From IMG/VR virus record IMGVR_UViG_3300032246_001533, positions 1-64,000 of that record: a DNA stretch of 64,000 nt; one strand, given 5' to 3'. Below, piece after piece: positions 1 to 11,278 of the stretch (the stretch's first letter is position 1; each line of letters opens with the position of its first letter). The DNA is from a virus. Below the pieces are notes generated by a model, which worked only from the letters and a program-made list of their open reading frames with translations, did no database searches and was not told where the DNA came from. The position numbers were made by a program, and so were the translations under genes.

Positions 1-246
1 AAATGATAAATCATATGTTAGTTGATATACTGCAGTTAAGGCGTCTAATCTTCCTTCCGCCTCTGTGCGAACCATAGAGTCCATTGCTTCTTCGGTCTCT
101 TGTTCTCTTTCGCTAGCCTCTGCTAGTTCCTGTTCTGCCATTAGCATGAGGTTCTTTAGTTCCCCGTGCATGATGTCAAGACCTGATACTCCTGCATTGA
201 CCATGCGTTGTAAGTGGGGCGGAAGCCCAATATCTTCTGCATTCAT
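1..246 (-). CDS. Hypothetical protein, 3' end cut by window
   Basis: The ATG at 246 opens a frame that runs off the left edge with 82 codons visible. The product begins MNAEDIGLPPHL and is mostly charged helix, rich in Glu and Ala (LAEASEREQETEEAMDS), which suggests a coiled coil. I recognise no family. An AAAGGG ribosome site lies 7 bases before the start. A TGTCAG-type promoter at 273-294, inside the end of the preceding gene, would give a very short leader. Function unknown; the C-terminus is missing. Confidence 0.75.
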   Translation of the reverse strand, partial: MNAEDIGLPPHLQRMVNAGVSGLDIMHGELKNLMLMAEQELAEASEREQETEEAMDSMVRTEAEGRLDALTAVYQLTYDLSF

Positions 247-247
247 T

Positions 248-568
248 TTATACCCTTTCGTTAGAGTTATTCATTATATCAGTAGCCACTGACAACAAAT
301 GCCTGGTAGCATGTATTTGACCATTTAAATATATCTCCTGGTCTTTGCTCCCATCTCCCCATATAACAGATTTATTACTAAGTAATTTTTCTAAATCTTG
401 TTCTAAACTATTTAAATAAGCTTTAAGATATTCCATAAATTTAGATGATCGTGTTTCTAATTCAACATAACCCTCTTCATTACAATTGTGACACATTGCA
501 GATTCATCTTCTGTATAATGTATTCCAACACCACATCCTGCACACCAAGATTCATCATACATCCCCAT
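248..568 (-). CDS. Small zinc-ribbon-like protein
   Basis: About 106 residues. The N-terminus has two CxxC knuckles (CAGC and CHNC, roughly residues 9-30), which would bind one zinc. The rest is helical and acidic. The start is ambiguous: ATG 568, ATG 562 and TTG 574 are all in frame. I chose 568 because an AGAAGGG site lies about 10 bases upstream. The start overlaps the end of the upstream small gene (555-716), which suggests translational coupling. The 3' end also encodes a promoter for the next gene. Exact function unknown; small zinc ribbons of this sort often bind nucleic acid or protein. Confidence 0.75.
   Translation of the reverse strand: MGMYDESWCAGCGVGIHYTEDESAMCHNCNEEGYVELETRSSKFMEYLKAYLNSLEQDLEKLLSNKSVIWGDGSKDQEIYLNGQIHATRHLLSVATDIMNNSNERV
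273..294 (-). promoter_or_regulatory. Early promoter, TGTCAG class
   Basis: On the minus strand TGTCAG (289-294) is followed after 10 bases by TATAAT (273-278) preceded by TGA, an extended -10. It lies inside the coding end of the gene at 248-568 and points at the gene starting at 246. Confidence 0.65.
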
Positions 569-716
569 TGTCAAAATACCCTTCTGCCCATAGGCCTTGT
601 AAAAAGTCTTGTGCTTTATTTAAACCATTTAAGACCTTATCTTTGGTTACGGTTCTGCTTGCCAATTCAATTGACTGACACATTTCATTTAAATCATTTA
701 TTTCATATCCTAGCAT
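555..716 (-). CDS. Hypothetical 53-residue protein
   Basis: The frame begins MLGYEINDLNEMCQSIELAS and ends GYFDNGDV. A strong GGAGG ribosome site lies 7 bases before the ATG at 716. Its start overlaps the stop of the gene at 710-856 and its end overlaps the start of the gene at 248-568, so the three form one tightly coupled operon. The product looks helical. No family recognised. Confidence 0.75.
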   Translation of the reverse strand: MLGYEINDLNEMCQSIELASRTVTKDKVLNGLNKAQDFLQGLWAEGYFDNGDV

Positions 717-856
717 TCTATTGCCTCCATATATTTAATTATAGTTTGTAGTGTTATATGAATGTGGCAATCACAATCATCAGATGTATCTCTATCGTCA
801 AAATGAATTAAGTTGTCATCATAGATATAATCAATTAGTTCTTGTGTAGTAATCAT
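710..856 (-). CDS. Hypothetical 48-residue acidic protein
   Basis: The frame begins MITTQELIDYIYDDNLIHFD and contains an Asp-rich stretch with two cysteines (DDCDCH). It follows the gene at 866-1603 by 9 bases. The AAGGTGAG that could serve as ribosome site lies in the last codons of that gene. Its stop overlaps the next start by 7 bases. Function unknown. Confidence 0.7.
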   Translation of the reverse strand: MITTQELIDYIYDDNLIHFDDRDTSDDCDCHIHITLQTIIKYMEAIEC

Positions 857-865
857 AAGCAGAAC

Positions 866-1603
866 TCATCTCACCTTTCTATATTCGGGTACTTTAGTTT
901 CTAAGTATATCTTATGGGTCTGACATTCTTTAACAGATTCTAGGTCTGCTTCTCCAAGCCAGTTACAATTAGAACAGATTTGGTTTTCACAATCTTCACA
1001 GAATTCCATAGTATCTGTTGCATCACAATCACGACACATATTATCGTATTCAGATTCAGAAATGATTTCTCCACGAAGGAATTCCATTTCACCACCCCAG
1101 CCTGTCTCTTCTTCATATGATAATGTCATAAGAAGGTTTGGATACTGTGCAGATAATTTTTGCATTGCAGCAATTGGTCTTCCCCAAGCGGTTTCAAAGT
1201 TATAATGAACTACATAGTTATCACCATTCTCTGATTCTTGAATGTCAGTAGTAGGATATTCATCATCCTCGGCTACAGCCACATCCCATTTAACACCCCA
1301 TTCACGGTTATTAAAGTTATACCAATCATTGGATTCGAACTTAAGAAACTCCGCAAAGTCCTTATCAGGATTATGAGGGGGCTGGGAATGATAAATCTCC
1401 TCAGTAACACCATGGTCTACATAAGAATAGATATTATGAAAAGCAAAGATAGGATTGACATACTTACGTTGTCTAATTGAATATGCTAAATCACCATTAG
1501 ATTGTACAGAATACACGAATGGCTTGTTCATTTGTTTAATTAGTGATTTTACTTGGTCAGGATTACCTTCAATGGTTAAACCATTATATACCCAGTTTGG
1601 CAT
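866..1603 (-). CDS. YubB/Api92-like ferredoxin-fold protein with C-terminal zinc ribbon
   Basis: 245 residues. The N-terminus MPNWVYNGLTIEG and the central NNREWGVKWDV segment (about 100-110) match the ferredoxin-like domain of the plasmid and phage YubB/Api92 family (formerly DUF1281), whose role is not established. The last 60 residues add three CxxC pairs (CRDC, CEDC, CSNC), a treble or double zinc ribbon that is an extra beyond the family core. The start is well set: AAAGGA lies just upstream and a TGTCAG promoter lies at 1634-1655. It is the first gene of the operon running down to position 248. Confidence 0.8.
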   Translation of the reverse strand: MPNWVYNGLTIEGNPDQVKSLIKQMNKPFVYSVQSNGDLAYSIRQRKYVNPIFAFHNIYSYVDHGVTEEIYHSQPPHNPDKDFAEFLKFESNDWYNFNNREWGVKWDVAVAEDDEYPTTDIQESENGDNYVVHYNFETAWGRPIAAMQKLSAQYPNLLMTLSYEEETGWGGEMEFLRGEIISESEYDNMCRDCDATDTMEFCEDCENQICSNCNWLGEADLESVKECQTHKIYLETKVPEYRKVR

Positions 1604-1633
1604 TATTTTCCTTTGTTAGAGAGTTAGAGAGTT

Positions 1634-1655
1634 ATTGTATCAGAGGGCACTGACA
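1634..1655 (-). promoter_or_regulatory. Early promoter, TGTCAG class
   Basis: TGTCAG (1650-1655), 10-base spacer, then TACAAT (1634-1639) preceded by TGA, on the minus strand. It drives the gene starting at 1603 with a leader of about 25 bases. Confidence 0.7.
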
Positions 1656-1661
1656 AATATA

Positions 1662-1820
1662 TTAATTTACCAGTTCTACTTCATGGAAAAATCTAAGTTC
1701 GATTTTCCCATCTTTGAGATAACCAATCATGAATTCTTGGGTTTCATCATCGAGATAAATTTTCTCTACAATGACTTCATCTGTGTTATCTACTATGACT
1801 TTGCTTCCAGTTTCTATCAT
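1662..1820 (-). CDS. Hypothetical 52-residue protein, probably leaderless
   Basis: The frame starts MIETGSKVIVDNTDEVIVEK at 1820 and ends at 1662. The pattern of short alternating strands (VIVD, VIVEKIYLDD, GKIELRFF) suggests a small beta-barrel such as an SH3 or KOW fold. There is no ribosome site. The -10 box TAGAAT ends 6 bases before the ATG, so the transcript should begin at or near the start codon. No family recognised. Confidence 0.7.
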   Translation of the reverse strand: MIETGSKVIVDNTDEVIVEKIYLDDETQEFMIGYLKDGKIELRFFHEVELVN

Positions 1821-1826
1821 GGGATT

Positions 1827-1848
1827 ATTCTACCATTACCCACTGACA
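1827..1848 (-). promoter_or_regulatory. Early promoter, TGTCAG class, leaderless type
   Basis: TGTCAG (1843-1848), 10-base spacer, TAGAAT (1827-1832) preceded by TGG. The ATG at 1820 lies 6 bases past the -10 box. Confidence 0.65.
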
Positions 1849-1895
1849 TTATCAAGGGCATCTCGTAATAGTCTCGTAATATTGATCTCGTAATC

Positions 1896-1911
1896 TATGA
1901 TTTTTATCACA
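1896..1911. promoter_or_regulatory. CRP/GlxR-like operator (degenerate)
   Basis: Minus-strand TGTGATAAAAATCATA has one perfect TGTGA half and one weaker half. It is centred about 83 bases upstream of the predicted start of the promoter at 1827-1848. The surrounding 1861-1920 also holds four copies of CTCGTAAT. An ATGTCC motif pair follows at 1918-1936. Confidence 0.45.
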
Positions 1912-1954
1912 CTCGTAATATGTCCTATATGTCCGTTTTGTCGCCACGCAAGAT

Positions 1955-1985
1955 CCCCGCAGCTTTAGCTGCGGGGCCTGGTTTT
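1955..1985 (+). terminator. Strong hairpin with T-run on the plus strand
   Basis: A perfect 9-bp stem CCCCGCAGC/GCTGCGGGG with a TTTA loop (1955-1976) is followed on the plus strand by GGTTTTTATTT. It sits right behind the stop codon of the leftward gene 1989-2345. As an intrinsic terminator it would work best on rightward transcription, although no rightward gene precedes it. Confidence 0.55.
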
Positions 1986-1988
1986 TAT

Positions 1989-2345
1989 TTAAATAGAAAT
2001 GTGATTCTCTACAACTTCCATTTGATATTCTATAAATGAATCAAACGAATGTGAATGTCCATCTACAATAACATTTTGATTGTCCATGTCAATTACAACG
2101 TGGTGATAACTTTCTTCCCCGCCAAATTCACCTGCATATAAACCGAAACCTGTTTCAGAATCCCAGTCGTTGCCAATCAAAGTAGATACGGCTATGCGTG
2201 TTGCATATCCAATATCTCCCCAACGTGGCATTGCTCTCTTTAGTGCAACAGCAAGGTCAAGCAACTGTGTATCTCCACCCCAATGTGAGTAAAGAGTTAC
2301 ATAGTTATCACCTTGCTTGAAATGAAAATTAGTTCTAGCGCCCAT
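1989..2345 (-). CDS. Conserved phage hypothetical protein
   Basis: 118 residues starting MGARTNFHFKQGDNYVTLYS, with a SHWGGDTQLLDLAVAL segment. I have seen this N-terminal style (G-x-R then TLYSHWGG) in small phage proteins of unknown function, but cannot name a family. Ribosome site GGAGGT lies 9 bases upstream, inside the tiny gene at 2346-2414. The stop of that gene is followed at once by this ATG, so the two are coupled. Confidence 0.75.
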   Translation of the reverse strand: MGARTNFHFKQGDNYVTLYSHWGGDTQLLDLAVALKRAMPRWGDIGYATRIAVSTLIGNDWDSETGFGLYAGEFGGEESYHHVVIDMDNQNVIVDGHSHSFDSFIEYQMEVVENHISI

Positions 2346-2414
2346 TTAATTTAGACCTCCGATTGCTATTAGAATTGCGATTGCGATTGGTATTACAATA
2401 TAAATCCATGTCAT
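2346..2414 (-). CDS. Tiny membrane peptide (22 residues), leaderless
   Basis: The frame encodes MTWIYIVIPIAIAI followed by LIAIGGLN, which is almost entirely one transmembrane helix. The -10 box TAGGAT (2421-2426) ends 6 bases before the ATG, so translation would start at the 5' end of the mRNA. The gene carries the ribosome site of the following gene within its last codons and ends directly against that start. It could be a real membrane peptide or a coupling leader. Confidence 0.55.
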   Translation of the reverse strand: MTWIYIVIPIAIAILIAIGGLN

Positions 2415-2420
2415 GTGGTT

Positions 2421-2450
2421 ATCCTATCAGATTAGAGGGAGGGAAGTCAA
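2421..2450 (-). promoter_or_regulatory. Sigma-70-like promoter
   Basis: Minus strand TTGACT (2445-2450), 18-base spacer, TAGGAT (2421-2426) with an extended TGA. Its -35 box lies within the stem of the terminator at 2436-2464, so termination of one operon and initiation of the next share bases. It differs from the neighbouring TGTCAG promoters. Confidence 0.5.
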
Positions 2451-2464
2451 GGACTCCCCTCCCT
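2436..2464 (-). terminator. 13-bp hairpin after leftward gene
   Basis: AGGGAGGGAAGTC pairs with GACTCCCCTCCCT around a 3-base loop, with one G-T wobble. It lies 16 bases past the stop of the gene at 2481-2897. No clear U-run follows. Confidence 0.5.
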
Positions 2465-2480
2465 AAGAGAAGTTATCTAA

Positions 2481-2897
2481 TTAGAGATAACGAGCAATCT
2501 GCTTCATGGTAGAAGCATTAACTGTTTCCTCATCTGTCATGCGGAGGATAGAAAGTGCGTTAGAGATTTCCTCTACGATTTCTTTGTATTGGTGTCCGTG
2601 CATTATATCAAAGTCACGCTGTGGCTCAACTGGCAAATCCTTTTCGGATACTGTCAAATCAAAGTCAATGTTTAACTGATTATTCCAAGAACGATAGTTT
2701 GTGCGAAGGTTCTCAGCCTTTTTGATATTAGCGATTGCATACTCTTGGATTTCTTTCTGCCAAGCCTTACGAGCCTTTTCATACTTAGCCTCGTTTGCAC
2801 CTTGCTCTGCATATTCTTTCTTGATTGTTGCTAACTTTGTTTCCAAAGCCTTGATTACCTTTGGTGTTGCCACCTTTACTGTGATTGCTCTACTCAT
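2481..2897 (-). CDS. Hypothetical coiled-coil protein
   Basis: 138 residues, basic N-terminal half (ATPKVIKALETKLATIKKEY, then KYEKARKAWQKEIQEYA) with a heptad-like pattern, and a helical C-terminus. It has its own TGTCAG promoter (2930-2951) and an AAAGGA ribosome site, and is followed by a strong hairpin. It therefore appears to be a single-gene unit. Function unknown. Confidence 0.75.
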   Translation of the reverse strand: MSRAITVKVATPKVIKALETKLATIKKEYAEQGANEAKYEKARKAWQKEIQEYAIANIKKAENLRTNYRSWNNQLNIDFDLTVSEKDLPVEPQRDFDIMHGHQYKEIVEEISNALSILRMTDEETVNASTMKQIARYL

Positions 2898-2929
2898 TTT
2901 TTTCCTTTGTTAGTTGGGGTTGTGGGATT

Positions 2930-2951
2930 ATTATATCAGGGGGTACTGACA
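2930..2951 (-). promoter_or_regulatory. Early promoter, TGTCAG class
   Basis: TGTCAG (2946-2951), 10-base spacer, consensus TATAAT (2930-2935) with TGA before it. It begins one base past the stop of the upstream gene at 2952. Confidence 0.75.
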
Positions 2952-3179
2952 TTATGCTTCGTGCTTAGGCATTTCTACCTGAACATTTTTGTGATTTACA
3001 GCACTTTTAAGAGTGCCTTGAAAGGCTACCATCATGGTAGCAAGCTTCATTTCATCTGAACATGAGAGTTCAACTGTTGAATCATTTATTACTTCATATT
3101 CAACGCCATATTGGATCGCCTTGCCCAACCCGTAGCCCATTTGGGCACGGGACGGGACTTCAAGAGTAATTACAGCCAT
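2952..3179 (-). CDS. Hypothetical 75-residue protein
   Basis: Starts MAVITLEVPSRAQMGYGLGK. Its ATG overlaps the stop of the gene at 3179-3790 in a TAATG arrangement, so it is translationally coupled to it. The mix of beta strands and one helix gives no family I can name. Confidence 0.7.
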   Translation of the reverse strand: MAVITLEVPSRAQMGYGLGKAIQYGVEYEVINDSTVELSCSDEMKLATMMVAFQGTLKSAVNHKNVQVEMPKHEA

Positions 3180-3790
3180 TAGTATGCACCTTCTTCTACT
3201 CGTTCAACATCATAGTCATTTACAGAAATCTCTGAACCGAAAGAATCAACTGTAAGATTATTACGAATCAAATCTTCTAGGTCATAGTCACCTTCACGAA
3301 TATCAACTTCAATGGTTGCATCTACACGAATATACGCTGTTACTTCGATTTCCTTAGTTAGTGGAACATCAAAAATATCTGCAATTTGTTCTAGTGCTTC
3401 TTGGTCTTCTGAATCAGCAAATACTTCATGTAGCAAGGTACGCAACTTAGACTCTTTTGTGTACCACTCGTTTTGCTTAGAAGTAAGATTTTTGTTCTGC
3501 CAAACCATGTGACGAACATCTGACTCTGTATATTCTTTTGTAACTGTTGAATCATTTTCTACCCAATCAAGTGTCATTACCTGTGGGATAATTGGTGTTG
3601 TTGTTTCCATAGTTTGTTCTTCTTTCTGTATGATAGTTGGGTATATTGTAGCATCTGCTACTGACAAGAGAGTGAGGTCTCCATAACATTCGAGACAAGT
3701 TTTATCTCTAAGTTCATCTGATTTAGTTGTCATTTCAATTAGTGCATCACAAATTGAACAGACATATTCTTTTTTGTACCATTTTTCCAT
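3179..3790 (-). CDS. Zinc-ribbon protein with internal second promoter
   Basis: 203 residues from ATG 3790 (MEKWYKKEYVCSICDALIEM). The first 35 residues hold CSIC and CLEC zinc knuckles. The long C-terminal part ends in an acidic beta-rich region (EVTAYIRVDATIEVDI). The start is chosen because the -10 box at 3797-3802 ends 6 bases before it, giving a leaderless mRNA. A longer frame would read through the promoter. A second TGTCAG promoter (3645-3666) lies in frame within the gene and precedes an AAAGAAG site and ATG 3610 (METTTPIIPQ). This could yield a 143-residue form without the zinc ribbon. Function unknown. Confidence 0.7.
   Translation of the reverse strand: MEKWYKKEYVCSICDALIEMTTKSDELRDKTCLECYGDLTLLSVADATIYPTIIQKEEQTMETTTPIIPQVMTLDWVENDSTVTKEYTESDVRHMVWQNKNLTSKQNEWYTKESKLRTLLHEVFADSEDQEALEQIADIFDVPLTKEIEVTAYIRVDATIEVDIREGDYDLEDLIRNNLTVDSFGSEISVNDYDVERVEEGAY
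3645..3666 (-). promoter_or_regulatory. Internal early promoter, TGTCAG class
   Basis: TGTCAG (3661-3666), 10-base spacer, TACAAT (3645-3650) with TGC before it. It lies within the coding sequence of 3179-3790 and would drive the short form starting at 3610. Confidence 0.6.
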
Positions 3791-3796
3791 AGCGCT

Positions 3797-3818
3797 ATTG
3801 TAGCAGTTCCCACTGACA
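3797..3818 (-). promoter_or_regulatory. Early promoter, TGTCAG class, leaderless type
   Basis: TGTCAG (3813-3818), 10-base spacer, TACAAT (3797-3802) with TGC before it. ATG 3790 lies 6 bases downstream. Confidence 0.65.
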
Positions 3819-3856
3819 TATTCGGGAGACACGCCGTAATAACGTAATCTCGTAAC

Positions 3857-3872
3857 TGTGTTTTACATCACA
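3857..3872. promoter_or_regulatory. CRP/GlxR-like operator
   Basis: TGTGTTTTACATCACA, an imperfect TGTGA-N6-TCACA palindrome centred about 74 bases upstream of the predicted start of the promoter at 3797-3818. Confidence 0.5.
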
Positions 3873-3919
3873 TGGCCGTCGCCAAATTTTTATGCATTGC
3901 AGTGCATATTTATTTATTG

Positions 3920-3993
3920 CGATCTGTATCGGACTTGAACCGACGACCTCTACCGTGACAGGGTAGCGCTCTAACCAACTGAGCTAACAGACC
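3920..3993 (-). tRNA. tRNA-Asp (anticodon GTC)
   Basis: A complete 74-base cloverleaf reads on the minus strand. The 7-bp acceptor GGTCTGT/ACAGATC has one G-U pair. The D arm contains TAGCTCAGTTGGTTAGAGC. The anticodon stem CTACC/GGTAG encloses the loop CTGTCAC with anticodon GTC, and the T arm has GGTTCAAGTCC. The discriminator base is G, as expected for tRNA-Asp. CCA is not encoded. It lies between two leftward genes and is probably cotranscribed. Confidence 0.95.
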
Positions 3994-4060
3994 AGGTGCA
4001 GATTCTTACTTACGACATTGGGCGAGAACTTCTGCAAACTGCCCCTGTTTCGATTTTTTA

Positions 4061-5110
4061 TTAAGCGGTAAGTGCTAACACTTGCTTAACAATTTTATTT
4101 TTTTCTGCGGTAACAACAGGGTCAAATCCGCTTGCACCTGCCATAAGTGAATCGCCATTTCCCTTGCGGGCTGTGCGATAATAATCTAGGCGTTCAGTAA
4201 GTGCATTTACAACACCCCATGCTGTGCCTTTGATATTAGCGTTAGTTGGTGAATTATGATACAACTCATCAACTAGGAGAACCTTATTCTCCCATTTCTT
4301 GATTGAACCCTTAGCGTCCTTTTCAGGCTTAGCATAGATTGAATTTACGATTTTTGAGAATTGTGCATTAGTTACCTCACGAGAGAATAACTCTTTAGCC
4401 TGCAACTCGAATTCGTCCATGTATGAAAATGTAAGACCTAGAGCCTCACGAGCAGCAGCAATTTTTCCATCTACTGTTTGCGTGTGACGAATCTTGAAAG
4501 ATTGCTTAGCCTTTTTCATTGCAAGGTTTAGAGTGTTTTGGCACATAACACGAACGGGGGTGATTGCAGATTGAACCGCAACTGAACCATCGTGTGAAGT
4601 CCAAACAATAAGATAAAGTTTAGTCTCATCATTTGCACCATTAGGGTCAAGAATCATAGTGCGGGGAATAGACATTGAACCATAGACCACACGACCATTC
4701 TTTAGAGACCCAGCAGATTCCCAAACTACATCAGGATTTCCGTCATGGATATTATCTGCAAACGCAAACAAATCTTCATTCTGTACAGTCTTATAGCGTG
4801 AGCCTACAACTGAGAGAACATCTTTCTGTCCCGCTGTGATTGGATTATCACGAACAACAAGATAGTTATCTGAAACAGTTGTATAGTTATCTGCAAGCAA
4901 ATCTGAAACAGATTCTAGTTGCACATTCCAGTTAGATAGATTTGCACCTTGCAACATTTGCGCTGTAGTAACAGCCTCATCTTGCGAGAATACTTTATTG
5001 GCAAAAGAGTGCCATGCGGGATTGGTGCGAAGATTTACTGCAAGAGTTGCAGAACCATCGTTGATTTCTGATTGGTGAGCAAGATTGCCCACGGGTGATT
5101 GAACTGACAT
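4061..5110 (-). CDS. DUF932 family phage/plasmid-like protein
   Basis: 349 residues starting MSVQSPVGNLAHQSEIND. The length and segments such as NPAWHSF, LVVRDNPI, SRYKTVQNEDLFAFAD and RVMCQNTLNLA match the DUF932 / TIGR03299 family found in phages and plasmids. The function of the family is unknown. It has a dedicated TGTCAG promoter (5143-5164), an AAGAAGGA ribosome site and a CRP-like operator further upstream. The tRNA lies about 65 bases past its stop. It is the largest gene of the left arm. Confidence 0.85.
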   Translation of the reverse strand: MSVQSPVGNLAHQSEINDGSATLAVNLRTNPAWHSFANKVFSQDEAVTTAQMLQGANLSNWNVQLESVSDLLADNYTTVSDNYLVVRDNPITAGQKDVLSVVGSRYKTVQNEDLFAFADNIHDGNPDVVWESAGSLKNGRVVYGSMSIPRTMILDPNGANDETKLYLIVWTSHDGSVAVQSAITPVRVMCQNTLNLAMKKAKQSFKIRHTQTVDGKIAAAREALGLTFSYMDEFELQAKELFSREVTNAQFSKIVNSIYAKPEKDAKGSIKKWENKVLLVDELYHNSPTNANIKGTAWGVVNALTERLDYYRTARKGNGDSLMAGASGFDPVVTAEKNKIVKQVLALTA

Positions 5111-5142
5111 AGGTTTTTCCTTCTTTCTGTTTATGTATCGTT

Positions 5143-5164
5143 AGTCTAGCATACGGGACTGACA
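5143..5164 (-). promoter_or_regulatory. Early promoter, TGTCAG class
   Basis: TGTCAG (5159-5164), 10-base spacer, TAGACT (5143-5148) with TGC before it. It drives the DUF932 gene. Confidence 0.65.
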
Positions 5165-5224
5165 TCTGTCCATTCTTAATACCAAGATAAACATTCATTT
5201 GTCTTAAATGTCCGATTTCAGGAA

Positions 5225-5257
5225 TGTGATAAATCTCACACGTAAAGGTTATCCACA
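5225..5257. promoter_or_regulatory. CRP/GlxR-like operator next to a DnaA box
   Basis: TGTGATAAATCTCACA (5225-5240) is a full TGTGA-N6-TCACA palindrome. TTATCCACA (5249-5257) matches the DnaA box consensus. An ATGTCCGAT element lies just before (5208-5216). The CRP-like site is centred about 96 bases upstream of the DUF932 promoter start. Confidence 0.5.
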
Positions 5258-5314
5258 CGTAATACACAGACACGCCCGAACGGGGCGACATGTCGCCACA
5301 CTTTTTGCAAATTG

Positions 5315-5395
5315 TCAAGCTTTAAAAATATCAATAAAAAAACTTATAGCAGCAAGTATTAATAATGTAAATAAATCTGCTATAAGCTTTTTCAT
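5315..5395 (-). CDS. Tiny membrane peptide (26 residues)
   Basis: The frame encodes MKKLIADLFTLLIL then AAISFFIDIFKA, one hydrophobic helix after a short basic N-terminus. GGGGGG lies 5 bases before the ATG as ribosome site. It follows the gene at 5408-5548 by 12 bases and is the last of a four-gene overlapping cluster. No family recognised. Confidence 0.55.
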   Translation of the reverse strand: MKKLIADLFTLLILAAISFFIDIFKA

Positions 5396-5407
5396 TGTGG
5401 CCCCCCA

Positions 5408-5548
5408 TTAAATAAATTCGGTTAGATCTCGATCCATAATTTCATTTACATCAACACCTTCTACTTCTGCAATTGCATCCCATAATTCAGATTCGGTAAA
5501 ATTACCGTCAGGGTACCAAGTAGCAAGTACTTCGTCTAAACTATTCAT
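5408..5548 (-). CDS. Hypothetical 46-residue acidic protein
   Basis: Starts MNSLDEVLATWYPDGNFTES and ends DLTEFI. It overlaps the upstream gene by 8 bases. It is strongly acidic, a common trait of small phage proteins that act on host proteins, but nothing specific can be said. Confidence 0.65.
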   Translation of the reverse strand: MNSLDEVLATWYPDGNFTESELWDAIAEVEGVDVNEIMDRDLTEFI

Positions 5549-5843
5549 CGCTCACCAAGCATTCGTTACAGTCACAATAGTGTGCATGCGGTAGCCATGC
5601 ATCCAAGTGGTGAGATTCTGCAATAGCGGATGCTGGAGCACTGTCCTGGCCACGCCACGAGACGCCTTCAGGAAGTTTAATTAAACGGTCATATGCTTCA
5701 TCATGATACGCATCAATTGCATCTAAGCAAGGTTGGACCATGGAAGACGGAACGGGCGGATAGTGATTACCCTGCAAGTGAATACGTAGTGAAGAATGAA
5801 TATCTAATGATTCAGATAAATCTAGCGCTGTATTGTATCCCAT
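5541..5843 (-). CDS. Conserved phage hypothetical protein
   Basis: 100 residues from MGYNTALDLSESLDIHSSLR. The segment SWRGQDSAPASAIAESHHLD followed by AWLPHAHYCDCNEC holds clustered His and Cys that could bind a metal. The start overlaps the preceding stop by one base (TAATG). No function known to me. Confidence 0.75.
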   Translation of the reverse strand: MGYNTALDLSESLDIHSSLRIHLQGNHYPPVPSSMVQPCLDAIDAYHDEAYDRLIKLPEGVSWRGQDSAPASAIAESHHLDAWLPHAHYCDCNECLVSDE

Positions 5844-6049
5844 TATTCGGCCACCTTAAGAATTGCATAGGAGCCACCTTCGTTAATTCGGTCAATTTCA
5901 GGCTGGATTGTTGGAATAATTAATGCTTTAAGCATTCTTTCAAGCATTTCAATTTGCTCTTCAAGCGGTAGGCCAAGGAGACGTTGACCTATTGGATGAG
6001 TTTCATCTACTTCAGTGACGAACTTGAGTGTGTGTGGAATTTGTACCAT
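5843..6049 (-). CDS. Hypothetical 68-residue protein
   Basis: Starts MVQIPHTLKFVTEVDETHPI. It is the first gene of the cluster 6049-5315, with TGTCAG promoter 6079-6100 and an AAAGGA ribosome site about 7 bases before the ATG. Mostly helical in the middle (LEEQIEMLERMLKAL). Function unknown. Confidence 0.7.
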   Translation of the reverse strand: MVQIPHTLKFVTEVDETHPIGQRLLGLPLEEQIEMLERMLKALIIPTIQPEIDRINEGGSYAILKVAE

Positions 6050-6078
6050 TTTTTGTCCTTTGTTAGTTGGGTTAGAGT

Positions 6079-6100
6079 ATTGTATCAGGGAGCACTGACA
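6079..6100 (-). promoter_or_regulatory. Early promoter, TGTCAG class
   Basis: TGTCAG (6095-6100), 10-base spacer, TACAAT (6079-6084) with TGA before it. It starts two bases past the stop of the gene at 6102-6251. Confidence 0.7.
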
Positions 6101-6101
6101 A

Positions 6102-6251
6102 TTAGAGATATAAGTCTTCGGTGCTAGAGATTAATTCACCATACATTTTTTCTTCTTGCCATTCGAAGAAGTGAAGGTTACATAGTGTTTTGATATCGGT
6201 GCGGGGAATTCCTGAACACGCAGTGCACAAGGATTCGATTAGATTGCCCAT
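6102..6251 (-). CDS. Hypothetical 49-residue protein
   Basis: Starts MGNLIESLCTACSGIPRTDI at 6251 and ends EDLYL. An AAAGAAAGG ribosome site lies 7 bases upstream and a TGTCAG promoter at 6281-6302. It contains CTAC and one further Cys. A longer frame in another phase covers the promoter and is rejected. Function unknown. Confidence 0.65.
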   Translation of the reverse strand: MGNLIESLCTACSGIPRTDIKTLCNLHFFEWQEEKMYGELISSTEDLYL

Positions 6252-6280
6252 GAGTTGACCTTTCTTTTGGAGATAATTGA

Positions 6281-6302
6281 AGTATAGCGTAATGCACTGA
6301 CA
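6281..6302 (-). promoter_or_regulatory. Early promoter, TGTCAG class
   Basis: TGTCAG (6297-6302), 10-base spacer, TATACT (6281-6286) on the minus strand. The bases before the -10 read CGC, so the extended element is absent here. Confidence 0.6.
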
Positions 6303-6329
6303 TATTCAAGTTACCCGTAAATATTTTTG

Positions 6330-6345
6330 TGTGAGAAATATCACA
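6330..6345. promoter_or_regulatory. CRP/GlxR-like operator, perfect half sites
   Basis: TGTGAGAAATATCACA has both halves exact. It is centred about 63 bases upstream of the predicted start of the promoter at 6281-6302, close to the classic -61.5 activator position. Confidence 0.55.
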
Positions 6346-6401
6346 CGTAACGTAAGACACGACACGCCCGACCCCGCCGACAAATTTAGTTGAATTTTCA
6401 A

Positions 6402-6557
6402 CTATCTAAAAAATGGAGAAACAAGATCACTATAAAGCTTTAAGATTTTATTTTTTTCATTTTTTGTTTTGCGATTATATTTTTTTTTATTTTTAATTGG
6501 TGTTGCAGCATTACTGCGACGCAATTCCTGAATGCGTTTTACTTTTTCATTTGTCAT
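6402..6557 (-). CDS. Small basic protein of an actinophage-like family
   Basis: 51 residues, MTNEKVKRIQELRRSNAATP then IKNKKKYNRKTK and a Lys-rich tail. The IQELRRSNAA-(T)-P-(I)-x(4-6)-Y-x-R-K pattern is one I associate with small basic proteins in actinobacteriophages. Their role is unknown; the charge suggests nucleic-acid binding. The ATG overlaps the previous stop in an ATGA arrangement. Confidence 0.7.
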   Translation of the reverse strand: MTNEKVKRIQELRRSNAATPIKNKKKYNRKTKNEKNKILKLYSDLVSPFFR

Positions 6558-6763
6558 TTTTCTACGACCCTTCTTCCTTCACGATAAAATATTTTTGTGT
6601 AGCATTTACCCGAAGGCGTGTAGAGATTTACAGTAGAATATTTATCTGCAAATCCCCAGTCAATAAACTTTGCAAACTCTTTGTGTGCTTGCAATTCATC
6701 TGCATATTGAAAAGAAAAATCAGGTGATTTATTTTCATCATAGGTTACAGTTATTTTATACAT
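6554..6763 (-). CDS. Hypothetical 69-residue protein
   Basis: Starts MYKITVTYDENKSPDFSFQY. Alternating strands and a helix (ELQAHKEFAKFIDWG) suggest a small alpha/beta fold. It is a member of the coupled cluster running from 7116 to 6402. Function unknown. Confidence 0.7.
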   Translation of the reverse strand: MYKITVTYDENKSPDFSFQYADELQAHKEFAKFIDWGFADKYSTVNLYTPSGKCYTKIFYREGRRVVEK

Positions 6764-6764
6764 A

Positions 6765-6899
6765 TTAGTTATTCCAATCTAGTGTAACACACTCGCATTT
6801 TGTTATTGTTATGGTGTTACCATTGCTACTTACAGTAGCAATAGTATCGCACCCATCGCATAAGAATACATTTGATAAATTATCTAGCAGGTTTCCCAT
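6765..6899 (-). CDS. Hypothetical 44-residue Cys-containing protein
   Basis: Starts MGNLLDNLSNVFLCDGCDTI and ends CECVTLDWNN. CDGC and CEC give a possible four-Cys zinc site with a beta hairpin between. It starts one base past the stop of 6901-7116 and ends one base before the next start. Short but well placed. Confidence 0.6.
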   Translation of the reverse strand: MGNLLDNLSNVFLCDGCDTIATVSSNGNTITITKCECVTLDWNN

Positions 6900-6900
6900 A

Positions 6901-7116
6901 TTATTCACTCACCTTTACGGCTACTGTGCGATAAGTTTTGCGACCCCAAGTATTGCTTCCGCTATTAGGTGCAATTTCTACAAGATAGGTTTCGCAACCT
7001 TCATACCAAATTGGTTGTGGGTGCTTTTCTGCACTGATAATTTCACCTCGCATTGTGCGGGAAATATAAGGCTTTCCTACAAGTAGGTTTTCGATTGAGT
7101 ATACATTGGCTGACAT
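6901..7116 (-). CDS. Hypothetical 71-residue protein
   Basis: Starts MSANVYSIENLLVGKPYISR and is predicted to be mainly beta (RGEIISAEKHP, CETYLVEIAP, TYRTVAVKVSE). AAGGAAGGTGG lies 5-8 bases before the ATG. Its own TGTCAG promoter lies within the tail of the upstream gene at 7150-7171. Function unknown. Confidence 0.7.
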   Translation of the reverse strand: MSANVYSIENLLVGKPYISRTMRGEIISAEKHPQPIWYEGCETYLVEIAPNSGSNTWGRKTYRTVAVKVSE

Positions 7117-7235
7117 TAGTTGCCACCTTCCTTTTCTTTATTGTTAGATATTGTAGCAGATAGCACTGACATTGCTTTTTCTGCATTTGCTTTACGTGTT
7201 GCAAGGACGTGTGCCTTGTATTCATCTAGGTTCAT
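7116..7235 (-). CDS. Hypothetical 39-residue peptide
   Basis: MNLDEYKAHVLATRKANAEK then AMSVLSATISNNKEKEGGN. An AGAAAGAAGG ribosome site and TGTCAG promoter (7266-7287) support the start at 7235. The stop overlaps the next ATG (TAATG). Its last third also encodes the promoter of the next gene, as seen at 273-294. Function unknown. Confidence 0.65.
   Translation of the reverse strand: MNLDEYKAHVLATRKANAEKAMSVLSATISNNKEKEGGN
7150..7171 (-). promoter_or_regulatory. Internal early promoter, TGTCAG class
   Basis: TGTCAG (7166-7171), 10-base spacer, TACAAT (7150-7155) with TGC before it, inside the coding sequence of 7116-7235. Confidence 0.65.
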
Positions 7236-7265
7236 TTCTGACCTTCTTTCTCTTGATATGCCGTA

Positions 7266-7287
7266 AGTATAACAGAACGCACTGACA
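7266..7287 (-). promoter_or_regulatory. Early promoter, TGTCAG class
   Basis: TGTCAG (7282-7287), 10-base spacer, TATACT (7266-7271) with TGT before it. It drives the gene at 7235. Confidence 0.7.
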
Positions 7288-7334
7288 TTTTCCAGTTCTG
7301 CAAGGGTTTGTCTCAATATATGGAGCGTGGCAAA

Positions 7335-7350
7335 TGTGATAAAACTCACG
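7335..7350. promoter_or_regulatory. CRP/GlxR-like operator
   Basis: TGTGATAAAACTCACG, 9 of 10 consensus half-site bases. It is centred about 83 bases upstream of the promoter start at 7259. A 10-bp inverted repeat GGCGTGTCGT/ACGACACGCC (7359-7385) follows. Confidence 0.45.
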
Positions 7351-7397
7351 TAAAATACGGCGTGTCGTACTTGACACGACACGCCCGAACGGGGCGA

Positions 7398-7426
7398 CAA
7401 AAATTTGCAGCTTGTCAACTGCAAAT
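7398..7426 (-). terminator. Rho-independent terminator
   Basis: Minus strand ATTTGCAG/CTGCAAAT stem (8 bp, 8-base loop) is followed by TTTTGT. It lies 10 bases past the stop of the gene at 7436-7537 and ends the operon 8015-7436. Confidence 0.7.
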
Positions 7427-7435
7427 CTTTTTTAT

Positions 7436-7537
7436 TTATTTTATTTTATCTAAAATCTTTTCTAATTCTTTTAATTGTTCAAGATTAAGATGATCCAAAT
7501 TTATTGCATCAGCAAAACCAAAAATATCTTTTTCCAT
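7436..7537 (-). CDS. Hypothetical 33-residue peptide
   Basis: MEKDIFGFADAINLDHLNLE then QLKELEKILDKIK, a short amphipathic helix. ATG 7537 overlaps the preceding stop (TAATG) and GAGG lies 6-7 bases upstream. It is the last gene before a clear terminator. Small, but the coupling supports it. Confidence 0.55.
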   Translation of the reverse strand: MEKDIFGFADAINLDHLNLEQLKELEKILDKIK

Positions 7538-7677
7538 TATTCGACCTCTTTCCATTCAAAACAATAAGAATCTTTTACAAAAGAATTTTTAACTACAGAA
7601 TCAAAAAGAGAAATTGCTTGGTCTTCATCTTCTGCATTAATATCTAACCAAACGCCAAATGTATATTTTTTAGTCAA
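7537..7677 (-). CDS. Hypothetical 46-residue protein, TTG start
   Basis: The product reads (M)TKKYTFGVWLDINAEDEDQA then ISLFDSVVKNSFVKDSYC. TTG 7677 is the start: GGAGG lies 8 bases upstream inside the preceding gene. The two genes overlap by 8 bases. The beta-helix pattern resembles a small ferredoxin-like unit. Function unknown. Confidence 0.65.
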   Translation of the reverse strand: MTKKYTFGVWLDINAEDEDQAISLFDSVVKNSFVKDSYCFEWKEVE

Positions 7678-7882
7678 GGTAAATACCTCCCTTTACATTT
7701 TTATGATTAACACACACATTTCCACGGGGAATCGGTGTATGACATTTGAAGCATTGCATTTGAACACTAGCGTTATTTGCTATTGCCCATTCCAAATCTA
7801 TCTTAGTAGATGGAGAAGCATTTTCTAATGATACCCAGCCAGCACCATTTTCATTCATTTCAAAAATTTCTAAGTTAGCCAT
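7670..7882 (-). CDS. Hypothetical protein with CxxC knuckle
   Basis: 70 residues starting MANLEIFEMNENGAGWVSLE. The C-terminal half has CFKCHTPIPRGNVCVNHK, giving Cys/His ligands for one zinc. It overlaps the upstream zinc-ribbon gene by 8 bases and the downstream TTG-started gene by 8 bases. Function unknown. Confidence 0.7.
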   Translation of the reverse strand: MANLEIFEMNENGAGWVSLENASPSTKIDLEWAIANNASVQMQCFKCHTPIPRGNVCVNHKNVKGGIYLD

Positions 7883-8015
7883 TTACTAGAACTCCTAACT
7901 CCATTTTTACATACTTACCGCTTTTGCGGTCTGAGCAGACTGGGCAGAACCAATCTTGAGTTTCGCATGTCTGATACTGACATGTCTTGCATTTATTTAC
8001 CATATATTGAGTCAT
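7875..8015 (-). CDS. Zinc-ribbon miniprotein (46 residues)
   Basis: MTQYMVNKCKTCQYQTCETQ then DWFCPVCSDRKSGKY. CKTC and CPVC, with one further Cys, form a classic zinc ribbon. AGAAAGGAG lies just before ATG 8015. It heads the operon 8015-7436 under the promoter at 8064-8085. Confidence 0.7.
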   Translation of the reverse strand: MTQYMVNKCKTCQYQTCETQDWFCPVCSDRKSGKYVKMELGVLVNG

Positions 8016-8063
8016 TTTGACTCCTTTCTTTTGCTAACCTTTAGCAACTTTCTTTATAATGGA

Positions 8064-8085
8064 ATTATAGCAGGGGGGTCTGACA
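8064..8085 (-). promoter_or_regulatory. Early promoter, TGTCAG class
   Basis: TGTCAG (8080-8085), 10-base spacer, consensus TATAAT (8064-8069) with TGC before it. Confidence 0.75.
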
Positions 8086-8125
8086 TCTACTCGCGGGTAA
8101 TGTGTACAAATTGGACATTTGCAAA

Positions 8126-8192
8126 TGTGACTTATATCATGTGGATAACTTACGCTCAAATTTAAATGTGATGTGCATCATGTGGATAACTT
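8126..8192. repeat. Two direct repeats, each a CRP-like half site plus DnaA box
   Basis: Two copies of TGTGA-N6-TCATG followed directly by TGGATAACTT (8126-8151 and 8167-8192), 41 bases apart. Each includes TGTGGATAA, the reverse complement of the DnaA box TTATCCACA (8140-8148, 8181-8189). The region is AT rich and gene free, between the promoter at 8064-8085 and the next gene. Confidence 0.55.
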
Positions 8193-8252
8193 GTCGGCAA
8201 AAATCGAACAAATGTTTGAATTATATTTATTCATGATCTTGCATAAATATGC

Positions 8253-8286
8253 GGGCAGTTTCTAGAGTTGCCCAGCTCTTTTTTTT
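8253..8286 (+). terminator. Weak hairpin with T-run on the plus strand
   Basis: GGGCA and TGCCC flank an 11-base loop (8253-8273), followed on the plus strand by a run of T (8279-8286). It abuts the stop of the leftward gene 8285-8470. As with 1955-1985, the T-run faces rightward. Confidence 0.35.
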
Positions 8287-8470
8287 ATTCTTCTACCGCA
8301 AGATTTCTCATGCACTCTTCCCAAAATCGGTCAGAGTCAAAACGTTCATTGTCTGTAATAAACATTTCAGAAAAATCATTTACTAAATCTTCATACACGT
8401 CAATTTTAATTTCTGATGCATATGAGTTTAAGATTTCCGCAGTTGCTACATAGTCTTTGCGAGTCATCAT
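8285..8470 (-). CDS. Conserved small phage protein (MTRKDY family)
   Basis: 61 residues. MTRKDYVATAEILNSYASEI leads to VYEDLVNDFSEMFITDNERF and a WEECMRNL end. This arrangement (MT-K/R-x-D-Y, then DLV-x-DF-x-x-MF, then N-x-R-F-D) is common in small proteins of actinophages and plasmids of unknown function. Two ATGs in tandem (8470, 8467) can serve as start. AAAGGA lies upstream within the preceding gene. Confidence 0.75.
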   Translation of the reverse strand: MMTRKDYVATAEILNSYASEIKIDVYEDLVNDFSEMFITDNERFDSDRFWEECMRNLAVEE

Positions 8471-8497
8471 TTTAGTTCGTGTCCTTTTCTCTATTTG

Positions 8498-8668
8498 TTA
8501 CTTGCTTGTCTTTACCATAGCAAAACGGCGTGAACCATTTGCTAAGATTAAATTAACACGGGTTACTTTGTTAGAGATTGGAGAGAAGCCAGCAATTCGA
8601 CCTGTTACACCTGTTTTGCTTGTGGTGAATAGGTCTCCGATTTGGTAAGTGTATCCGCTTAGTGTCAT
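8498..8668 (-). CDS. Small beta-barrel-like protein, paralogue of 8754-8921
   Basis: 56 residues, MTLSGYTYQIGDLFTTSKTG then VTGRIAGFSPISNKVTRVNL. It shares TYQIGDLFTT, VTG, TRV-x-L-x-L-x-NG and a following Arg with the gene at 8754-8921, so the two arose by duplication. A KOW/SH3-like barrel is plausible from the strand pattern. GGAAAACTA lies before the ATG. Function unknown. Confidence 0.7.
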   Translation of the reverse strand: MTLSGYTYQIGDLFTTSKTGVTGRIAGFSPISNKVTRVNLILANGSRRFAMVKTSK

Positions 8669-8753
8669 TTTAGTTTTCCTTTTCTTTTTTTCTTTGTTGG
8701 GTTTGGTTGAGCCTTTTTATATCTTGCTCAGGATATTTAGCGATTTGCTAAAC

Positions 8754-8921
8754 TTACTTGATTGTAACTGTTGTCCAGCGATAATCGCCGTTTTCAAGTG
8801 ACAACTTTACGCGGGTGCGTGTTTCTGTGACGGGGATAATCTCTGTGATTGTTCCTGTTACATTAGAACGCTGTGTAGTGAATAAATCACCGATTTGATA
8901 TGTCTTTCCTTTTACTGTCAT
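8754..8921 (-). CDS. Small beta-barrel-like protein, paralogue of 8498-8668
   Basis: 55 residues, MTVKGKTYQIGDLFTTQRSN then VTGTITEIIPVTETRTRVKL and a WTTVTIK end. It is first of the operon 8921-8285, with AAAAGGA upstream and a TGTCAG promoter at 8956-8977. No known function. Confidence 0.7.
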   Translation of the reverse strand: MTVKGKTYQIGDLFTTQRSNVTGTITEIIPVTETRTRVKLSLENGDYRWTTVTIK

Positions 8922-8955
8922 TTCTTTGTCCTTTTCTTTAGGTGGTTATTTCCCT

Positions 8956-8977
8956 AGTGTATCACTAGGGTCTGACA
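8956..8977 (-). promoter_or_regulatory. Early promoter, TGTCAG class
   Basis: TGTCAG (8972-8977), 10-base spacer, TACACT (8956-8961) with TGA before it. Confidence 0.65.
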
Positions 8978-8988
8978 TCTTGTCAAAT

Positions 8989-9141
8989 TTAGAGGATTTC
9001 GTCTGGGTCAAAATCTGGTGTATCTGGTAAGTTAAACTCTGATTCTTCAGGGTTCTCATCTTCCCAAATATCGTTTTGCTCTTGCATGAAATCGAGGGGG
9101 GATAGAGTAGAGGTTCTCTCCCATGAATATACATATGACAT
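8989..9141 (-). CDS. Hypothetical acidic 50-residue protein
   Basis: MSYVYSWERTSTLSPLDFMQ then an acidic tail (EDENPEESEF, DTPDFDPDEIL). I start it at ATG 9141 because that ATG overlaps the stop of the membrane-peptide gene 9141-9245 (TAATG). A longer in-frame start at 9186 exists but lies within a promoter-like sequence. Function unknown. Confidence 0.65.
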   Translation of the reverse strand: MSYVYSWERTSTLSPLDFMQEQNDIWEDENPEESEFNLPDTPDFDPDEIL

Positions 9142-9245
9142 TAGTTTAGTCCATTCTTCTTGAGGTCTTGATAGATAGCATAGCATAGGGGTATGACAAC
9201 AGATAGCAAGCCTATCTGCACTAGGCTAGTTAGTAGGCGATTCAC
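9141..9245 (-). CDS. Tiny membrane peptide (34 residues), GTG start
   Basis: (M)NRLLTSLVQIGLLSVVIPLC then YAIYQDLKKNGLN, one hydrophobic helix with a basic tail. The GTG start overlaps the preceding stop (GTGA) and the TAA overlaps the next ATG (TAATG). Coupling at both ends makes a real gene likely in spite of the size. Confidence 0.6.
   Translation of the reverse strand: MNRLLTSLVQIGLLSVVIPLCYAIYQDLKKNGLN
9177..9198 (-). promoter_or_regulatory. Degenerate TGTCAG-class promoter
   Basis: TGTCAT (9193-9198), 10-base spacer, TATGCT (9177-9182) with TGC before it. It would drive the gene starting at 9141. It is weaker than its relatives but has the same spacing. Confidence 0.4.
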
Positions 9246-9409
9246 TTGTTTACCTCTACCTTCATTACATTAGCTGAAAACTTTACTTTACTAGCGAGGT
9301 TACTTGCATTGAGTGTATCTATTAAGTGGTCAATAGCCTTAACCTCATGCGCTATGTTATTAACGCTTAGTAGTGTAGAGCCTTGCCATATTGAGTAAGT
9401 GATAGTCAT
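9242..9409 (-). CDS. Hypothetical 55-residue protein
   Basis: MTITYSIWQGSTLLSVNNIA then HEVKAIDHLIDTLNASNLAS and a KVKFSANVMKVEVNK end. The strand-helix-strand layout is that of many actinophage miniproteins. AAAGAAGAA upstream, promoter 9446-9467. Followed by GTGA-coupled membrane peptide. Confidence 0.7.
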   Translation of the reverse strand: MTITYSIWQGSTLLSVNNIAHEVKAIDHLIDTLNASNLASKVKFSANVMKVEVNK

Positions 9410-9445
9410 TATCTGTTCTTCTTTCTTTAGTTTGTTATAGTTGGA

Positions 9446-9467
9446 ATTATAGGGGATAGGTCTGACA
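9446..9467 (-). promoter_or_regulatory. Early promoter, TGTCAG class
   Basis: TGTCAG (9462-9467), 10-base spacer, consensus TATAAT (9446-9451). The base triplet before it is CCC, so the extended element is lost here. Confidence 0.65.
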
Positions 9468-9496
9468 AATAGGGGGATATAGAGGGGGTGTGTCTA

Positions 9497-9512
9497 TGTG
9501 ATTTACATCACA
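9497..9512. promoter_or_regulatory. CRP/GlxR-like operator, best copy
   Basis: TGTGATTTACATCACA has both half sites exact and the central TA favoured by actinobacterial GlxR. It is centred about 65 bases upstream of the predicted start at 9439 and abuts the stop of the gene at 9513-9668. Confidence 0.6.
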
Positions 9513-9668
9513 TTAGATGCACTCTATACACTCGCATCCTTTAGAGCGGATAAGGTAGGCTAGTACCTCTTTGCGTGTATAAGCATCTAGTCCATAAGAT
9601 GACTTAACGCCTCCATTATGGAAGTCATGCACGATAGTGCTAAATAGTGTTTCTGTTAGTGTAGTCAT
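9513..9668 (-). CDS. Hypothetical 51-residue protein
   Basis: MTTLTETLFSTIVHDFHNGG then VKSSYGLDAYTRKEVLAYLI and a CECIEC end. AAAGGTAGG precedes the ATG. An extended -10-like TGCTAGTAT lies at about 9723-9731, with a CRP-like palindrome about 74 bases further up. No TGTCAG element is seen. Function unknown. Confidence 0.65.
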   Translation of the reverse strand: MTTLTETLFSTIVHDFHNGGVKSSYGLDAYTRKEVLAYLIRSKGCECIECI

Positions 9669-9782
9669 TTACTGACCTACCTTTCTTTATCAAGAACCTT
9701 TCTTGATTTTCTTTATAGTAGAATACTAGCACACAATATCGAGAAAATCAAGCACCAACACGGACATATCGGACATATTTTA

Positions 9783-9798
9783 TGTGTTTTACATCACA
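9783..9798. promoter_or_regulatory. CRP/GlxR-like operator
   Basis: TGTGTTTTACATCACA, identical to the copy at 3857-3872. Confidence 0.5.
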
Positions 9799-9915
9799 TT
9801 TGAGCCTTGATATGCATACAAATCGGACATTACGGGCGGACTATTAATTTTTTAGTTTTTTTTCTAAAACGTGATTCATACAAAAAAAATGGCCATTAAC
9901 ATTTTGACCAAATAT

Positions 9916-9931
9916 GGTTTCACATGAAACA
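9916..9931. promoter_or_regulatory. parS-like palindrome
   Basis: GGTTTCACATGAAACA matches the bacterial ParB-binding site TGTTTCACGTGAAACA at 14 of 16 positions. It lies 12 bases past the stop of the HNH gene. It could instead be a simple hairpin. Confidence 0.35.
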
Positions 9932-9943
9932 TTGGGCGGGAAT

Positions 9944-10261
9944 TTAAAGATCTTTTACTTCATATTGGGGATAAGTATGTTCCATATGGCAATTAGCACA
10001 TACAATTCGACATTTTTCGATCTCTTTTAGGATAGTTTTAACACTATATCGTGATTTTTCCTTAGAATCTAGCCCAGAAGCTGCTGTCATTTGAGCAATA
10101 CCTACAATTTTTCCTTTTTTATCACGATATTTTGTTGATGGATCAATATGATCGAAGTGTAAAACAGCTGTATTTTTTTTATAACCACATACAACACAAC
10201 CTGTAGACAATTTTATAGAATTTATATACTGTCTAACCTCTAAAGCAGACATATTTTTCAA
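9944..10261 (-). CDS. HNH endonuclease
   Basis: 105 residues. C22/C25 (CVVC) and C88/C91 (CANC) form the structural zinc site, and HFDHID (about 35-40) with CANCHMEH supply the beta-beta-alpha-metal catalytic motif. This is a free-standing HNH nuclease of the type spread among phages as homing enzymes or packaging helpers. Here it ends a gene cluster and overlaps the 2OG oxygenase gene by 4 bases, so it is probably cotranscribed rather than recently inserted. Target unknown. Confidence 0.85.
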   Translation of the reverse strand: MKNMSALEVRQYINSIKLSTGCVVCGYKKNTAVLHFDHIDPSTKYRDKKGKIVGIAQMTAASGLDSKEKSRYSVKTILKEIEKCRIVCANCHMEHTYPQYEVKDL

Positions 10262-10740
10262 GATTTTACCAAAGAAATTGTAAAAAAATAGCGGGTACCT
10301 CTAGTAACTGGTAAAACACCATGGATTGGCTCAGATGACATATAAACTAGATCGTATTTTTTAGGTTTATAGATAAAATCATCTCCGACAGCAAGTTCTC
10401 CACCTTCATAATCGTCATTTAAATAAAATAAAGCTCCCATTTCAGGAAAAGGCTGGGAGTCAGAATGCATATTCATACCTACACCTTCTCTATAAATAGT
10501 CATAACACTTCCAGATACTTTATTAAAACCATCATTAAAATAAGCAGCAACCTTGTCACGATATTTATCTATGAACTGAATGGTGTATCTATTCTCTAAA
10601 TCAACGACACCTATACGTCCATCTCCTCTATCTTGCATTAAGCCTTCTTCTTCAAGATGATCCATATACTCAATTAAATTTTCAGCATCATCCTTATCAA
10701 AAAAATTAGGAATTATTTTTACATCATTTCTCATCTTCAT
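10258..10740 (-). CDS. 2OG-Fe(II) oxygenase (prolyl 4-hydroxylase-like)
   Basis: About 160 residues. The iron triad is visible: H92-x-D94 in MHSDSQPF and H140 in IHGVLPV, with R150 (TRYFF) for 2-oxoglutarate. EGGELAVGDD is typical of the P4H-type double-stranded beta helix. Such phage enzymes hydroxylate proteins or nucleotides using 2-oxoglutarate and oxygen. Several ATGs are possible at the start (10752, 10740, 10734). I chose 10740, inside the end of the upstream gene. The collagen-like fibres of this phage have few X-Pro motifs, so they are not an obvious substrate. Confidence 0.85.
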   Translation of the reverse strand: MKMRNDVKIIPNFFDKDDAENLIEYMDHLEEEGLMQDRGDGRIGVVDLENRYTIQFIDKYRDKVAAYFNDGFNKVSGSVMTIYREGVGMNMHSDSQPFPEMGALFYLNDDYEGGELAVGDDFIYKPKKYDLVYMSSEPIHGVLPVTRGTRYFFTISLVKS

Positions 10741-11259: not shown

Positions 11260-11278
11260 ATTAAATTATATTAAATTA

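Follow-up and report, generated by a model that had tools for sequence, protein, structure and literature searches.

Presumed early genes of a freshwater phage lineage probably run from host PafBC-type DNA-damage promoters

The first 64000 bases of the 70,579-base virus record IMGVR_UViG_3300032246_001533 (the window) carry 16 promoter-like sites, all of them on the minus strand (positions 273 to 9467), in which a TGTCAG box is followed by a −10 hexamer at a fixed distance. Judged by their letters, these are promoters of the RecA-independent DNA-damage class of mycobacteria and other actinobacteria (RecA-NDp), with the −26 element served by the regulator PafBC, and this identity of the motif is firm. 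Nearly every presumed early gene stands behind such a promoter and the motif is a published host promoter consensus; therefore the virus probably borrows the PafBC of its host and the activator is probably not a phage factor. Overall, we consider it very probable that a whole phage lineage runs its presumed early genes from host PafBC promoters. While the promoter class is already known, its wholesale adoption by a phage lineage appears to be new: the literature searched, with subscription journals mostly outside its reach, did not mention phages that use PafBC promoters.

Sixteen sites with one fixed spacer

The spacer between box and −10 hexamer is exactly 10 bases in all 16 sites, as the first-pass annotation had claimed for the 15 that it listed; all of those are present, and one more had escaped it. 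TGTCAG itself is found in 15 of the 16, with T, G and C/G favoured after it, and every −10 has the form TA....T. The extended −10 TG, described earlier as usual, is indeed common but not universal (G in 15/16, T in 13/16). Among 19 TGTCAG words on the minus strand of nucleotides 1–12000, 15 have a TANNNT downstream at spacer 10, any other spacer accounting for three at most; no spacer peak for this pair was seen on the plus strand or in the remainder of the record. Information is confined to the motif columns, while the flanking sequence is random; we therefore rejected the idea that the sites arose as copies of a longer dispersed repeat.

The training set of a matrix comprised 386 sites of relatives whose DUF932 protein is no more than about 80% identical, 24-mers shared with the record having been removed. 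The matrix recovers exactly the 16 sites on the minus strand of positions 1–9500 (16.4–33.5 bits), one weak match elsewhere in the 70.6-kb record (12.3 bits) and none on the plus strand, against a maximum of 9.9 bits in 40 Markov sequences of 70.6 kb each. Even the weakest site exceeds this simulated maximum.

The leftmost of the putative promoters lies at 273–294 (TGTCAGTGGCTACTGATATAAT, 26.3 bits) and is followed by the overlooked site at 904–925 (TGTCAGACCCATAAGATATACT (TGTCAGacccataagaTATACT), 23.1 bits). Several stand 5' of annotated or predicted genes: 1634–1655 (31.6 bits) before the DUF1281_C gene (Pfam) at 866–1603, 2930–2951 (28.2 bits) before an open reading frame (ORF) at 2481–2897, 3645–3666 (26.1 bits) before an ORF whose end is at 3179, and 5143–5164 (30.5 bits) before the DUF932 gene at 4061–5110. 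Further on, 6079–6100 (29.7 bits) precedes ORF 5843–6049, 7150–7171 (33.5 bits, the highest score) ORF 6901–7116, 8956–8977 (24.0 bits) ORF 8754–8921, and 9446–9467 (21.1 bits) ORF 9242–9409. The remaining sites are at 1827–1848 (27.5 bits), 3797–3818 (31.8 bits), 6281–6302 (27.6 bits, with a CRP-like box upstream), 7266–7287 (28.4 bits), 8064–8085 (32.5 bits) and 9177–9198, the last being the weakest (TGTCAT and TATGCT, 16.4 bits).

The motif equals a published promoter class

RecA-NDp promoters of mycobacteria have the consensus tTGTCRgtg-8nt-TAnnnT (PMC5656591) and occur outside mycobacteria as well (PMC8223512; PMC5087735). TGTCAG-N10-TANNNT, which also equals the logo of the phage sites, is the same string. 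The TGTCAG of the window sites corresponds to the TGTCRGTG-like −26 box, and the 8 nucleotides that separate TGTCRGTG from TAnnnT are kept in all 16 sites and in the spacer peak of 80 related loci. The statement of the first-pass annotation that no described promoter has this spacing thus does not hold, since the agreement is letter for letter (PMC5656591). Its placing of the box at about −28 to −23 without a −35 element stands: no −35 conservation was found in 733 sites, and ordinary sigma-70 promoters with a −35 were rejected because a consensus scan stayed at chance level (54 versus 49.8 expected).

PafBC is the regulator of RecA-NDp promoters and takes over the −35 contact ('sigma adaptation'). 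It is wedged between sigmaA domain 4 and DNA, with the helix–turn–helix (HTH) of PafB at the −26 motif, is activated by single-stranded DNA (ssDNA) bound in its WYL domains, and requires RNA polymerase for binding to promoter DNA (PMC11804915). In M. smegmatis, binding to the P1/RecA-NDp motif has been reported for another host regulator, ClgR (cited in PMC5656591), which could in principle be the reader here too. P1 activity, however, is lost in a pafBC mutant (PMC5656591), and the cryo-electron microscopy complex has PafB at the −26 element, so we regard ClgR or some other host regulator as a very improbable reader of the phage sites.

The phage promoters and the RecA-NDp class thus share an identical consensus, the −26 position, the lack of a −35 and the occurrence of the same promoter at host recA. 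They differ in that 10–25 copies are gathered in one phage region, where they would drive phage genes, and in that the −10 of the phage sites is often near consensus, a LexA box is lacking and phased CRP-like boxes are common.

Conservation in related phages and predicted transcription starts

Relatives were collected as 80 IMG/VR loci retrieved with the DUF932 protein (4061–5110), at 64–98% identity. They contain 906 sense-strand and two antisense cases of TGTCAG with TANNNT at spacer 10. In the logo of 662 unique sites T/A, G/C and C/G are favoured after TGTCAG, and a TGTCGG variant of the box also exists among the relatives. Three more distant phages (G311, G312 and G313; DUF932 identity of 52% or proteins largely different) have 9–25 sites, on one strand each. 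One of these, a divergent phage (locus L315 of record G312), has 24 clustered sites that read TGTCAGTGGTA...TATAAT; in many of them the TG of the extended −10 is missing. A LexA box beside the phage sites is nearly absent (1/923).

Across all of IMG/VR, a sharper version of the pattern matched at least 119 stretches with the 10-base spacer versus one with an 11-base spacer, and 109 of 119 matching loci examined contain three or more homologues of proteins of the window phage lineage. The motif is not a general property of actinophages, an idea that we rejected, as eight named actinophages have 0–4 scattered sites each.

Gene starts near the sites were compared with the start predicted from the motif. 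In the window, sites 1827 and 3797 are leaderless by this measure, with an ATG exactly at the inferred +1 (distance 0), and the other promoters have a usable ATG about 16–42 nucleotides past the start, in line with the 'sensible distance' noted earlier. Among 723 distinct sites, ORF ATGs fall at +0 in 24 cases and at +1 in 21, compared with one in the preceding five bases, and a second mode lies at 18–35 nucleotides. Leaderless together with short-leader transcripts would be expected to give such a distribution, which fixes the start from sequence, independently of experiment; ORFs that begin exactly at the predicted +1 support promoter function and thus the view that the sites are real promoters.

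These observations bear on the possibility that the sites are mainly decoys, which would occupy host PafBC and mute the DNA-damage response of the cell. The excess of phage sites (10–25 versus few per host genome) would fit such a role. Yet all window sites have a good −10 and starts set at the leaderless distance, a decoy would not require exact 10-base spacing to the −10, and PafBC does not hold promoter DNA in the absence of polymerase (PMC11804915). A decoy role may add to the promoter role, but it leaves the exact −10 spacing and the start sites unexplained, and as the principal function we find it highly unlikely.

PafBC and PafBC-type promoters in the probable host

The host is probably an actinobacterium of the acI group (Nanopelagicales), as suggested by habitat, WhiB, GC and tRNA-Asp similarity. 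Genomes of acI were located by the published acI 16S probe. The extended pattern occurs in 11 of them (about 13 Mb) 14 times, and fetched sites (loci L404–L413 and L417) include recA and carD promoters: eight belong to recA and read TGTCAG..........TACCTT, the identity of RecA having been checked, two are at carD, and the remaining sites are chance-like or have no assigned gene. In all eight recA promoters a LexA box starts 23 nucleotides after the first T of TGTCAG, the same dual-promoter plan (PafBC-type motif plus LexA box) as in mycobacterial recA. The recA-type site recurs across 296 genomes of the order. In one acI genome (G022, locus L414) tandem PafBC-type sites 81 nucleotides apart, at 1501–1522 and 1582–1603, lie before a gene; the same is seen in G197.

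The regulator is there as well. The genes pafB and pafC are adjacent in acI genomes and followed by tatC, their products match the PafBC chains in PDB at 4.5e-40 and 6.3e-27, and the recognition-helix segment RMFERDK of PafB is identical in acI and M. smegmatis. PafC with its HTH was found in 61/61 genomes sampled from the order.

Host activators are not the only conceivable ones. In T4, middle promoters work by MotA/AsiA sigma appropriation: a box for the activator, close to −30, stands in for the −35, the −10 is extended, and MotA is phage-coded. The phage lineage might likewise encode an activator that binds TGTCAG, such as its WhiB-like protein or an early protein of another kind. A WhiB-like gene is present in 14 of 15 phage records (all the longer relatives, G001–G014, twice in G010) and missing only from the incomplete window record, and for many of the early genes no function is known. 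The window record is one of the 15; three records close on themselves through a 120–123 base overlap. But WhiB marks actinophages and is widespread among them generally, the WhiB genes of the lineage are far from the early region, the logo TGTCAG(T/A)(G/C) is unlike the MotA box, and the exact motif is that of a published host class found at host recA and carD, which implies a host activator. A phage sigma factor and a phage-coded WYL regulator were both rejected as readers, since neither sigma-70 region 2 (PF04542) nor a WYL domain was found in the 15 records. The first-pass annotation was therefore right to suggest an activator box, and less so in looking for a phage-coded transcription factor; we consider such a factor unlikely, and host PafBC the probable reader.

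Several facts weigh against this assignment to host PafBC. The link to acI is drawn indirectly, the tRNA-Asp similarity, for example, being 86% over 56 nucleotides. Host sites are few for the DNA that was covered. The −10 of host recA (TACCTT) is poorer than those of the phage, therefore the phage sites may depend less on PafBC. Finally, the Streptomyces relatives of the lineage do not use the TGTCAG motif.

CRP-like boxes upstream of the promoters

Palindromes resembling CRP sites lie upstream of four window promoters: TGTGAN6TCACA at 5225–5240 (promoter 5143), 6330–6345 (promoter 6281) and 9497–9512 (promoter 9446), and the relaxed form GTGAN6TCAC at 7336–7349 (promoter 7266). They are proposed from the pattern and from phasing that extends throughout the lineage. 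Within 150 bases upstream, GTGAN6TCAC accompanies 260 of 771 sites versus 35 of 972 random windows, and, counted from the inferred start, the box centres fall at −63/−64, −74, −84/−85 and about −96, i.e. in steps of one helical turn, with an off-phase group at −69. In this phasing they resemble class I CRP sites. One strong gene for a Crp-type regulator was found in the hosts and none in the phages; a 400-kb portion of one host genome showed no enrichment of the box. A protein of the Crp family is perhaps the reader of the boxes and a candidate second input, and a combined PafBC–CRP promoter type is possible. A further palindrome of this kind is present in the window at 12166–12181.

Proposed mechanism and its meaning

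Four elements of the proposed mechanism are inferred: reading of the phage sites by host PafBC, including the dependence of the promoters on it; early timing of the genes behind them; an acI host; and, as the trigger, ssDNA present when phage DNA enters or replicates. Entry or replication of phage DNA would yield ssDNA, which would bind the WYL domains and make host PafBC competent to join the RNA polymerase–sigmaA complex, by analogy with mycobacteria. The HTH of PafB would read TGTCAGTG at −26 and that of PafC would hold sigma region 4, so that no −35 would be needed. Polymerase with sigmaA would thereby be recruited to all early units, perhaps with the help of Crp, and the promoter class that the host uses for recA would govern almost all transcription units of the presumed early region.

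It is conceivable, though we would not yet favour it, that two host sensors, PafBC for ssDNA and a CRP-like protein at the phased upstream boxes, jointly gate the entire early programme. If so, the start signal of the phage would combine the metabolic state of the host with the processing of phage DNA as it enters or replicates.

Known ties between phage transcription and host DNA-damage sensing usually consist in LexA repression, mostly of prophages (SOS/LexA-controlled phages). Here, in contrast, an activator of the damage response appears to be the main early transcription factor, in a lineage akin to phages regarded as virulent. If this is true, infection would proceed only with the host ssDNA sensor on, which would explain how phages of the abundant but hard-to-culture acI bacteria begin transcription. 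The roughly 900 natural PafBC-type promoter sequences are also a large set from which the requirements of PafBC may be learned.

Phage lineage and neighbouring genes

The window phage, by its gene order and protein identities, is a member of a freshwater lineage related to Stanwilliamsviridae. A minus-strand presumed early block is followed by plus-strand genes for a glycosyltransferase and a ribonucleotide reductase, and the Streptomyces phages Jay2Jay and BillNye of that family share this order, with 51% identity in DUF932 and 57% in DnaE. The promoter-bearing genes are presumed early from genome position: the homologous block of Jay2Jay sits in the terminal repeats and hence at both ends. 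The early genes of the Streptomyces phages have apparent canonical −35/−10 promoters and lack the TGTCAG motif, so its use was probably acquired in, or is limited to, the freshwater lineage. In the place of TGTCAG, the early genes on the minus strand of Jay2Jay (L206, positions 900–10500) have GGACA-containing repeats and a recurring promoter, TTGTATC...TGTAGACT.

Positions 1–9500 of the window hold short genes, mostly without annotated function and often forming their own transcription unit, with some GC-rich hairpins between them. A tRNA-Asp(gtc) gene lies within this region (3919–3993, minus strand), and its sequence is 97% identical in G004. The proteins encoded on the plus strand at 16036–17517 and 30671–31879 contain collagen-like repeats and are probably tail fibres.

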